From a bacterium (GTDB lineage: Bacteria; SZUA-79; Acidulodesulfobacterales; Acidulodesulfobacteraceae), in contig DAHVNW010000002.1 in NCBI GenBank assembly GCA_027319095.1, positions 1 through 64,000 on the forward strand: 64,000 nt of DNA. The letters run 5' to 3'. A program made the translations under genes and the position numbers. The notes beneath the pieces were generated by a model. The model was not told the origin of the DNA. It worked only from the letters and a program-made list of their open reading frames with translations, and searched no databases. Of the stretch, positions 1,677 through 4,317 are shown piece by piece (position 1 is the stretch's first letter; each line of letters opens with the position of its first letter).

Positions 1677-2180
1677 ATGCTTTTAAATATGCTTAAAGAC
1701 AAGCTCGGTTTAATTGTAGAAAATTTAACTTACGAAACTAAAAGTTTTTATGAAGACAGGCTCGTTTCGCTTGCCATTTTCGGTTCCGTAGGCAGAGGAA
1801 CGCCTAATTGCGACTCCGATATAGATTTATTGATAATCGCCGATAATCTTCCAAACGGAAGAATGAAAAGGATTTCTGAGTTTAATTATATAGAAAATAA
1901 AATAGAACCAGTTACACAATCCCTTAAAAATTATAACATAAACACCCGTCTGTCGCCGGTTATAAAATCAAAAGAAGAAGCCTTATACGGCAGTCCCCTT
2001 TTTCTGGATATGGTTTCGGACGCCGTTATTTTATACGACAGGGATAATTTTTTAACGGATATTTTAAATAGCCTTAAGATTAAACTTGAAAAATTAGGCT
2101 CCAAGAAAATAATCCGTGGAAACGCTTGTTTCTGGGATTTAAAGCCTGATTTAAAACAAGGGGAAGATATAATTATATGA
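1677..2180 (+). CDS. MNT-type nucleotidyltransferase domain protein
   Basis: This minimal nucleotidyltransferase has 167 residues. The polymerase-beta-like motif is G-S-V-G-R-G at residues 36-41 followed by S-D-I-D with Asp48 and Asp50, the expected metal-binding carboxylates. It overlaps the next gene by four bases (ATGA), so the two are translationally coupled and form a classic MNT/HEPN pair. Members of such pairs can act as type VII toxin-antitoxin systems in which the MNT protein AMPylates its partner, or simply as two-subunit nucleotidyltransferases. Which applies here is not shown. No good ribosome-binding site precedes the ATG. Confidence 0.85.
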   Translation: MLLNMLKDKLGLIVENLTYETKSFYEDRLVSLAIFGSVGRGTPNCDSDIDLLIIADNLPNGRMKRISEFNYIENKIEPVTQSLKNYNINTRLSPVIKSKEEALYGSPLFLDMVSDAVILYDRDNFLTDILNSLKIKLEKLGSKKIIRGNACFWDLKPDLKQGEDIII

Positions 2181-2593
2181 CTTTTCAAAGCCTTGCCGAA
2201 AGTTATCTAAAAAAGTCTTTAGCAAGATTCGATACTCTGGATGTCCTTTTAAAAAAGGACGATTATTCGGACGTCATAAGGGAGGCGCAGGAAATAGTCG
2301 AACTTTGCCTTAAGGGAATGTTGCGCTATAAGGGGATTGAACCTCCTAAATATCATGACGTAAGCGGTTTTTTATTCGAATACAGGGATAAATTTAGCGA
2401 AATAAACGACGAAGACTTACGAAAAATTGCTTCCATATCTAAAAAGTTAAGAAAAGAAAGAGAGCTTTCTTTTTATGGAGATATCGACTTTATCCCTACC
2501 GAGAGCTATACTAAATCGGATGCGTCGGAAGCCATCGAAGACGCCCGGTTTGTCCTGGATGTCGCAGAAAAATTCATATCCAAAACTATTTAA
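2177..2593 (+). CDS. HEPN domain protein, partner of the MNT protein
   Basis: This 138-residue all-helical protein has the HEPN pattern of long amphipathic helices with E-L-C-L-K-G-M-L-R around residues 42-50 and P-P-K-Y-H-D-V at 56-62. The start overlaps the stop of the MNT gene. The R-X4-6-H motif that marks ribonuclease HEPN toxins is not present: His60 is the only histidine and the nearest upstream arginine (Arg50) is too far away. It therefore looks more like the substrate-binding HEPN class that accompanies nucleotidyltransferases than like an active HepT ribonuclease. That distinction is inference from motifs. Confidence 0.8.
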   Translation: MTFQSLAESYLKKSLARFDTLDVLLKKDDYSDVIREAQEIVELCLKGMLRYKGIEPPKYHDVSGFLFEYRDKFSEINDEDLRKIASISKKLRKERELSFYGDIDFIPTESYTKSDASEAIEDARFVLDVAEKFISKTI

Positions 2594-2732: not shown

Positions 2733-3131
2733 ATGCTTAAATTACTATTTATCGCCTTGGGCGGAGCGGCTGGCACGCTTCTTCGTTATGGAATATCCGG
2801 AATAAGCTATGGATTTTCCGACGGTGTTTTTCCATTCGGCACCCTTGTGGTAAATCTTTCCGGAGCCTTTACGATAGGTTTTTTATGGGGTCTTTTCGAA
2901 GGGTCTAATATATCTTCGACGGTCAGGACGCCGATATTCGTGGGTATATTAGGAGGCTATACCACGTTTTCCACATATGCGTTGGAAAGTTTTAACCTTA
3001 TAAGAAACAAGGAATATAAAATAGCCTTAATTAATATTCTTGCCTCCAACATATTCGGCATTAGCCTTGTGTTTACAGGTTTTATAATCTCTAAACTGCT
3101 TATAGCAAATCTTAAGGGGGCGCAATATTAA
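2733..3131 (+). CDS. crcB: fluoride channel CrcB/Fluc
   Basis: This is a small (132 residues) four-helix membrane protein of the Fluc family, which forms dual-topology dimers that export fluoride across the inner membrane. Family signatures are the N-terminal G-G-A-A-G-T-L-L-R with Arg18, Asn41 in N-L-S-G-A-F, and G-G-Y-T-T-F-S-T at 74-81, which lines the pore with the Phe box and Thr/Ser track. Length is normal. The stop TAA overlaps by one base the ATG of the DUF190 gene, so both are one transcription unit behind the promoter at 2667-2696. Confidence 0.93.
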   Translation: MLKLLFIALGGAAGTLLRYGISGISYGFSDGVFPFGTLVVNLSGAFTIGFLWGLFEGSNISSTVRTPIFVGILGGYTTFSTYALESFNLIRNKEYKIALINILASNIFGISLVFTGFIISKLLIANLKGAQY

Positions 3132-3463
3132 TGAATATTCCCGAAGAAGGCATGCTTTTAAGAATATTTATCGGCGAATCGGACATGCATAAAGGGAAAG
3201 CTCTTTACGAGCAAATCGTTATCAAAGCCCGCGAACTCAACCTTGCGGGAGCAACAGTCATCCGCGGCGTTATGGGCTTCGGGGCGCACAGCAGGATGCA
3301 CACCGCTAAGTTATTGCGCCTTTCGGAAGACTTGCCCGTTATAGTGGAAATCGTAGATACCGAAGAAAAACTTAACTTGCTTCTCCCCTTCCTTGACGAA
3401 ATCGTAGAAGAAGGGCTGATCACGCTTGAAAAAGCGCGGGTAATCAGGTATCGGCACGGTTAA
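3131..3463 (+). CDS. DUF190 family protein
   Basis: This 110-residue soluble protein is of the DUF190 family. Typical are the opening G-M-L-L-R-I-F-I-G-E, G-A-T-V-I-R-G-V-M-G-F-G at about 40-51, and L-P-V-I-V-E-I-V-D near residue 70. The fold resembles PII-like signalling proteins. It is frequently encoded next to crcB, and here the start codon overlaps the crcB stop. A regulatory or accessory role for the fluoride channel is inferred from neighbourhood only; the biochemical function is not established. Confidence 0.88.
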   Translation: MNIPEEGMLLRIFIGESDMHKGKALYEQIVIKARELNLAGATVIRGVMGFGAHSRMHTAKLLRLSEDLPVIVEIVDTEEKLNLLLPFLDEIVEEGLITLEKARVIRYRHG

Positions 3464-3519: not shown

Positions 3520-3783
3520 CTAATTATCCCCCCAATTTTTATTTTTAATAAAAAATATATAAAGGTTATTTAGCTCAACGGCGTTAAGAAGATGTACCTT
3601 AACAAGCGAGCACAAAGCGGGAATATCGTTTAAAAGCGAATCCTTATCTGATATAACCATTAAAACGTCATCTTGTTTTAAAGTTTTAAGTTTTCGGACG
3701 ACCGTCCATACCGGCGGCCCTCAGCATAAACCTCTTATATCGAGAACTATACCGCCGTAGTTTGAACAAGATTTAATCTCCAT
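3520..3783 (-). CDS. TusA-like sulfurtransferase with in-frame UGA (probable selenoprotein)
   Basis: Reading from ATG at 3783-3781 to TAG at 3522-3520 gives 87 residues if TGA at 3723-3721 (codon 21) is read through. The sequence around it is L-D-I-R-G-L-C-U-G-P-P-V. In the TusA/SirA family the same place reads R-G-L-x-C-P-x-P, so the UGA falls on the catalytic persulfide cysteine. The frame stays TusA-like on both sides (later D-I-P-A-L). A strong ribosome-binding site (AAAGGAGG) sits eight to nine bases before the ATG. A hairpin suited to a bacterial SECIS follows the UGA (separate entry). TusA proteins relay sulfur; a Sec form would be more nucleophilic. It follows nusB by 72 bases on the same strand. 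The alternative is a pseudogene with a nonsense mutation. Ordinary gene callers would miss it. Confidence 0.75.
3695..3723 (-). promoter_or_regulatory. candidate bacterial SECIS hairpin just after UGA codon
   Basis: In the RNA, the UGA (3723-3721) is followed by 13 bases and then by the hairpin GGAC-GGUC-GUCC (3707-3696), extendable by one U-G pair at 3708/3695. The tetraloop begins 17 bases after the UGA and starts with G. Known bacterial SECIS rules ask for an apical loop about 16-37 bases from UGA with a G in the first two loop positions, so this fits at the short end. The stem is short, and a competing pairing of 3719-3715 with 3704-3700 is possible. Confidence 0.55.
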
Positions 3784-3855
3784 TTTTTCTTGCCTCCTTT
3801 TTTAAATTTGCAATAATTATCTATCAGTCTAATTCCCCGCTACTATATTGCAAAT

Positions 3856-4317
3856 TTATTTAGTTTTAACCGCCGCATCTAATATGCCGTTAATAAAAGC
3901 CGGAGACTCGTCGTTTCCGAATTTCTTTGCTATTTCTATTGCTTCATTGATAACTACGTTTCTGGGTGTTTCTGGAATAAACATAATTTCATAAACGGAT
4001 AATCGTAAAATGTTTCTATCAATTCTAGACATTCTTTCGATTGCCCAGTTTTTAGCCACCGATTTAATTACATCGTCTATTTTTTCTAAATTAGATAAAG
4101 TCCCCCTTACGATATTAAAAAAAAAATCAAAAATCTGGGAAACGTCTTTCTTTTTGTTTAAATCTTCTCTTATTTTTATAAACCCGTCTCTCATAAGGCT
4201 TTCTGCAGCAAAGTCGTCATAAAACCTGTTTATTTTATAGTCTAAATTGCTTATATCCCCGTCTTCTTCGTACAGAAACTGCAACGCAAGCTCTCTTGCC
4301 TTTCTTCTTTTAGTCAT
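3856..4317 (-). CDS. nusB: transcription antitermination factor NusB
   Basis: NusB is the small helical partner of NusE (S10) that binds boxA RNA in rRNA antitermination complexes. The 153-residue length is normal. The N-terminal R-R-K-A-R-E-L-A-L-Q-F-L-Y signature (residues 4-16) and the C-terminal P-R-N-V-V-I-N-E-A-I-E-I-A-K-K-F are diagnostic. The gene lies 18 bases after ribH, the usual position at the end of a riboflavin cluster. Confidence 0.95.
   Translation of the reverse strand: MTKRRKARELALQFLYEEDGDISNLDYKINRFYDDFAAESLMRDGFIKIREDLNKKKDVSQIFDFFFNIVRGTLSNLEKIDDVIKSVAKNWAIERMSRIDRNILRLSVYEIMFIPETPRNVVINEAIEIAKKFGNDESPAFINGILDAAVKTK

Follow-up and report, generated by a model that had tools for sequence, protein, structure and literature searches.

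A UGA-containing TusA-fold gene of Candidatus Acidulodesulfobacteriota is a probable selenoprotein gene of a previously unlisted family

What is the meaning of a single TGA codon within an otherwise continuous TusA-like reading frame? The frame lies near one end of the window, the 64,000-nucleotide stretch of DNA analyzed here, which belongs to a metagenome-assembled genome (MAG) of Candidatus Acidulodesulfobacteriota (GTDB SZUA-79; 1.78 Mb, 97% complete). A preliminary description made from the sequence had placed the frame at positions 3520 to 3783, and those coordinates are correct, but it had not given the strand, which is minus. Read from 3783 to 3520, the frame contains an ATG, 20 sense codons, TGA (3723 to 3721), 66 sense codons, and TAG, and the read-through product would be MEIKSCSNYGGIVLDIRGLC-U-GPPVWTVV...WGDN*, with one TGA, at codon 21. 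The features of the gene are as follows.

3520..3783, minus strand: coding sequence of the predicted TusA-fold selenoprotein, 87 residues including Sec21, with the TAG stop at 3522-3520 and 27 orthologues that have the same TGA
3721..3723, minus strand: UGA, codon 21, predicted selenocysteine (Sec), aligned with the catalytic Cys of TusA
3724..3726, minus strand: Cys20 codon, an extra Cys directly 5′ of Sec that is unchanged across the Sec and the Cys-Cys forms
3610..3612, minus strand: Cys58 codon, invariant in the Sec-TusA family and also common in other TusA proteins
3793..3799, minus strand: Shine-Dalgarno sequence AAGGAGG, 9 nt upstream of the ATG

The read-through protein scored 42 bits against the Pfam TusA profile (PF01206; cut-off, 28.6 bits), and the segments on either side of the UGA fell within one TusA domain, in agreement with the earlier view that both are TusA-like. 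In alignments, Sec21 fell on the active-site Cys of E. coli TusA (CPxP) and on that of the TusA paralogues of the same genome, and the UGA is thus where the preliminary description had put it, at the catalytic position. The CPxP site itself reads UGPP, with Sec for Cys and Gly for Pro, and is not canonical. Moreover, the TusA equivalog profile (NCBIfam NF001423) gave 43 bits, below its curated cut-off of 78, and the YedF profile (TIGR03527/NF008242) gave 22 bits versus a cut-off of 79, the protein being 87 amino acids of TusA domain only, without DsrE. An AlphaFold2 model, computed with C for U, had a pLDDT of 85; its best PDB match was E. coli TusA bound to IscS (Foldseek TM, 0.74 to 0.83; rank 1), it also matched the TusA-like domain of TsuB, and it put Sec21 just before helix 1 (residues 23 to 33). 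The predicted fold is therefore of the TusA type. We conclude that membership of the TusA/SirA superfamily (PF01206) rests on the profile score and the fold (3lvj/1dcj match), and we do not propose that the protein is a canonical TusA. TusA domains occur at ten places in the host genome, and only the gene at 3520-3783 has a TGA inside. No other credible TGA-spanning frame was found within the 64-kb window, an Rfam scan of the gene region and window returned nothing relevant, and a plasmid tblastn search gave no match.

Orthologues were found in 27 of the 30 family genomes, at 55 to 85% identity, and codon 21 was TGA in 27/27 and TAA, TAG, or Cys in none. The relatives are mostly MAGs and include, in the GTDB genome scan, an SZUA-79 bin and Candidatus Acididesulfobacter diazotrophicus; all 27 that bear the TGA were assembled separately. 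The alignment of homologues that the preliminary description had called for thus returned UGA in all 27 orthologues and Cys at codon 21 of the paralogues. The median dN/dS 3′ of the UGA was about 0.1, which indicates purifying selection on a C-terminal frame that has not decayed. Three family genomes lacked a detected orthologue (MAGs, 81 to 92% complete) and five lacked a detected tRNA-Sec, and both are probably MAG gaps. A broader set of 386 genomes, about 356 of which represent other groups within the domain, showed Sec forms only in the family among the matches listed.

Contig C77 of the host genome encodes SelA (563 bits) and SelD (351 bits), contig C113 encodes SelB (292 bits), and contig C33 carries tRNA-Sec (selC; 68 bits). 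All four components for which a search had been advised are therefore present, and tRNA-Sec was detected in 25 of the 30 family genomes. We note that the host SelD gene (L050, G000:C77) has an in-frame TGA of its own, in the context SAHG-U-GCK, and is itself likely to encode a selenoprotein. TGA also ends 9 of the 32 long frames in the window, and because it serves as an ordinary stop elsewhere, the genetic code is not changed.

Decoding of UGA as Sec in bacteria calls attention to the RNA just 3′ of the codon, where a candidate hairpin is located.

3695..3708, minus strand: SECIS-type hairpin UGGAC-GGUC-GUCCG, loop at 3703-3700, supported by covariation, RNAalifold, and frozen synonymous sites

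The preliminary description had reported a loop starting with G 17 bases past the UGA, and the loop indeed begins exactly 17 nt 3′ of it; in E. coli fdhF, GGTC lies 18 nt after the UGA. Folding of the single sequence did not give a significant hairpin (z about −1), and the evidence therefore rests on conservation and covariation. Across the orthologues, 97.5% of stem cells pair, with both sides changed in 14 cells, and the GGUC loop is invariant. None of 500 shuffles, which keep relatedness, reached the covariation score of the stem, and slid controls scored 0 to 0.11 versus 0.36; weight is also given to these slid controls and to the recurrence of the same pair types (UA, CG, and UG; GC, UG, and UA). 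RNAalifold recovered the same stem de novo. Moreover, the three codons over the top of the hairpin, which encode A-V-V, are GCG-GTC-GTC in essentially all orthologues, and in the rest of these genes GTC accounts for 16 of 170 Val codons. We conclude that overlap with the hairpin freezes the synonymous sites of these three codons.

The TGA could instead have arisen by misassembly, be the stop of a pseudogene, or reflect a code change in which UGA specifies Trp or another residue. The nonsignificant fold of the single sequence is consistent with such explanations, but they conflict with the 27 separately assembled TGA-bearing relatives, the low dN/dS, the full Sec machinery, the covarying SECIS, and the ordinary use of UGA as a stop codon elsewhere in the genome, and we regard them as extremely improbable. 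Pseudogene, sequencing error, and code change were rejected as candidates on the grounds of conservation, selection, and stop usage. The preliminary description had named three observations that would speak against a selenoprotein (a genome without selA, selB, or selC; relatives with neither Cys nor UGA at the site; a decayed C-terminal frame in close strains), and none of them holds. We conclude from these sequence comparisons that the locus is very probably a real selenoprotein gene for a single-domain TusA-fold protein, here called Sec-TusA, in which UGA codon 21 is decoded as Sec. SelB and tRNA-Sec would decode the UGA as directed by the SECIS hairpin, which is inside the coding sequence.

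Sec-TusA has relatives with Cys in place of Sec. Cys-Cys TusA paralogues (GMCCSVP, GLCCSxP, and GICCAQP) occur in family genomes G010, G019, G022, and G023 and in outside genome G093, and they share a signature of the SDKxSMxNDIPAFC type. Judged by alignment, these paralogues and ordinary TusA supply the Cys/Sec pair at position 21. Cys20 is present in every Sec and Cys-Cys form and absent from ordinary TusA paralogues. Three more Sec forms (G061, G093, and G076) were among the matches listed for another set of 396 genomes, comprising the phylum that contains an NCBI-labelled Nitrospirae genome and its relatives, and rarer or more divergent Sec forms may exist elsewhere. The G061 form is near that of the family (59% identity 3′ of the UGA), and the G093 and G076 proteins represent a distinct CUGDP (LCUGDP) form.

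L096:5778-6041, minus strand, and L098:557-877, plus strand: members of the divergent Sec-TusA clade, from genomes G093 and G076

The CUGDP genes have a hairpin-like sequence of the CUCAA-GGUCU-UUGAG type at the same spacing from the UGA, as judged by visual inspection; a shortened segment gave a weak fold. tRNA-Sec was detected in G061 and G076 and was not detected in G093, a carrier of the second Sec form. In a phylogenetic tree, Sec and Cys-Cys forms grouped together with modest support (94/68; 76 columns), the 28 family-type Sec forms, including that of G061, formed a clade (100/99), and the two CUGDP forms formed a separate one (100/100). The CUGDP clade may represent an independent Cys-to-Sec conversion. 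We note that the G061 sequence (L074/L095) is nested among those of Acidulodesulfobacteriota in the tree, even though its bin is labelled Nitrospirae. Misbinning was considered and is not obvious, as the GC content of its contig (53%) matches that of another contig of the bin (55%) and differs from that of Acidulodesulfobacteriota loci (32 to 42%). Lateral transfer or older ancestry may account for the G061 copy.

The surroundings of the gene were compared, with nusB, RNase PH, and other genes named by Pfam and the rib genes named from sequence.

3856..4317, minus strand: nusB, directly upstream in the same operon-like run (Pfam NusB, 122 bits)

The order nusB-tusA(Sec) was found in every Acidulodesulfobacteriota locus examined, as part of ribD-ribE-ribBA-ribH-nusB-tusA(Sec), and rph (RNase PH) is usually the next gene. 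In the window, tusA(Sec) has no adjoining rph; the position that rph occupies in most relatives is taken here by a CrcB-like gene of the fluoride channel family and a DUF190 gene that it overlaps (2733-3463, plus strand), a pair convergent with the selenoprotein gene. Farther along, a nucleotidyltransferase (MNT) gene is directly followed by a HEPN-domain gene (1677-2593, plus strand), an arrangement typical of HEPN-MNT toxin-antitoxin systems. The Sec forms of G093 and G076 precede a response regulator and a sensor kinase (two-component system). The Cys-Cys paralogues (loci L102, L101, L100, L099, and L097) have nitroreductase and TetR-like genes as neighbors in several genomes of Acidulodesulfobacteriota, and that of G093 adjoins a gene with an FmdE domain as well as thioredoxin-like and Crp-type genes; the names TetR, thioredoxin-like, and Crp-type were read from sequence. 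No sulfur operon (dsr, tus, or hdr) was found near the tusA(Sec) loci examined. We conclude that the neighborhood is uninformative with respect to substrate, because it offers housekeeping genes only and no sulfur operon.

What might a Sec residue do in a TusA fold? Sec would occupy the TusA catalytic position at the N terminus of helix 1, and the subfamily-specific Cys before it would create a vicinal C-U-G motif. Sec21 could attack a persulfide, polysulfide, or disulfide, and Cys20 would resolve the product in a vicinal selenenylsulfide cycle. Behind this scheme is the chemistry of vicinal Cys-Sec pairs, for which thioredoxin reductase is an analogy and not a homologue. We infer, tentatively and with slightly less than even confidence, that Sec-TusA is a fast redox or persulfide-reducing form of TusA that cycles through a Cys20-Sec21 selenenylsulfide and is not a storage-type sulfur carrier. 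The lack of Cys20 in ordinary TusA paralogues and the presence of Gly instead of Pro at the second position of CPxP count toward that step, and the rib, nusB, and rph neighbors, which suggest no substrate, count against it.

Sec21 might, on the other hand, merely replace the persulfide Cys of a sulfur carrier, which would take up sulfur from IscS-like donors as RSe-SH or RSe-S-R and pass it to tRNA thiolation or the Dsr pathway. The TusA fold, with TusA of the IscS complex as the best structural match, is consistent with sulfur carriage, as are the adjoining RNA-related genes nusB and rph. So is the lineage, whose members are facultative anaerobes of acid mine drainage with reductive dsrAB, dsrEFH, and dsrL (PMC6776010). 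A carrier has no need of a vicinal Cys, yet Cys20 is invariant; several Cys-containing TusA paralogues in the genome could do the carrying; CPxP is altered to UGPP; and the gene is outside any dsr, tus, or hdr operon. We consider sulfur carriage rather unlikely, and we favor a redox-active Cys-Sec pair over a plain persulfide carrier because Cys20 is kept in all Sec and Cys-Cys forms.

Two further roles seem improbable. Selenium might be carried as RSe-Se or RSe-S-Se to SelD or to the tRNA selenouridine synthase, similar to the role proposed for YedF, in which TusA is fused to DsrE and for which a link to selenium metabolism has been described (PMC2432076, PMC5322559). Sec-TusA, however, has no DsrE domain, and its gene is apart from selA, selB, and selD (contigs C77 and C113). 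Moreover, MnmH/SelU was found at threshold in none of the 18 genomes checked; Sec therefore appears to be the main use of selenium, and donation to tRNA selenouridine was rejected. The Cys-Sec pair might alternatively be a binding site for soft metals or organometals (Hg, As), a role that has been suggested for other selenoproteins with a CU motif. Such motifs recur in HgcA, SaoL, and SaoC (PMC13188914, Table 1), and the host habitat is metal-rich acid drainage, but the gene has housekeeping synteny and no metal resistance neighbors. By analogy with known Cys-Sec pairs, a redox or persulfide-reducing role would rank first, ahead of sulfur carriage and then of selenium carriage and metal binding. 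A broader proposal, which we hold with more reserve than the redox role itself, is that Sec-TusA is a phylum-wide, dedicated persulfide/polysulfide (or disulfide) reductase, that it represents a catalytic redox function new to the TusA fold, and that the second Sec clade, in another lineage, may be an independent Cys-to-Sec conversion.

TusA is a central sulfur-trafficking fold, and the current prokaryotic selenoprotein list has no Sec form of it. The 119 prokaryotic selenoprotein families inventoried in 2026, among them those of Haft and Tolstoy 2025 and Haft and Gwadz 2023, include no TusA/SirA entry (PMC13188914, Table 1). Likewise, no TusA/SirA selenoprotein was found by word search in the main texts of a 2022 list (PMC9312934), the GOS survey (PMC2398784), deep-Sep (PMC12013277), and an Asgard survey (PMC11227280), and SirA-like/YedF was mentioned solely for its association with the use of selenium (PMC2432076, PMC5322559). 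The preliminary description had treated SirA/TusA-like Sec proteins as already known; this finds no support, and the finding is newer than was assumed there, because the 119-family inventory is without a TusA domain. We conclude that Sec-TusA is a new, previously unlisted selenoprotein family, of which an earlier unindexed mention may exist. Its members are likely missing from protein databases because standard annotation drops or splits the gene. In 27 of 30 family genomes, Sec is fixed at the sulfur-handling residue, across a phylum of acid mine sulfate reducers, and the lineage also contains Cys-Cys and ordinary Cys paralogues, so that the contribution of selenium to persulfide chemistry could be tested directly.

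Sec-TusA shares with E. coli TusA (YhhP; PF01206, COG0425) the fold, a Pfam TusA score above cut-off, and the placement of residue 21 at the active Cys, and differs from it in the UGA-encoded Sec, UGPP for CPxP, the extra Cys20, and synteny. YedF also has a TusA-type domain and is linked to selenium-using organisms, but it uses Cys and includes DsrE, whereas Sec-TusA holds Sec itself and lacks DsrE. Rhodanese-like and DsrE-like selenoproteins (PF00581, PF02635) are likewise sulfur transfer folds, in which Sec is placed at the reactive Cys or close to it (PMC13188914, Table 1), although their folds are unrelated to TusA. Adjacent Cys and Sec residues as in Sec-TusA are found in the CU-motif selenoproteins (HgcA, SaoL, SaoC, and KCU-star) and in the Gly-Cys-Sec-Gly motif of mammalian thioredoxin reductase, a likeness of analogy and not of homology: the reductase carries its motif in a C-terminal tail, whereas that of Sec-TusA is at the start of helix 1.
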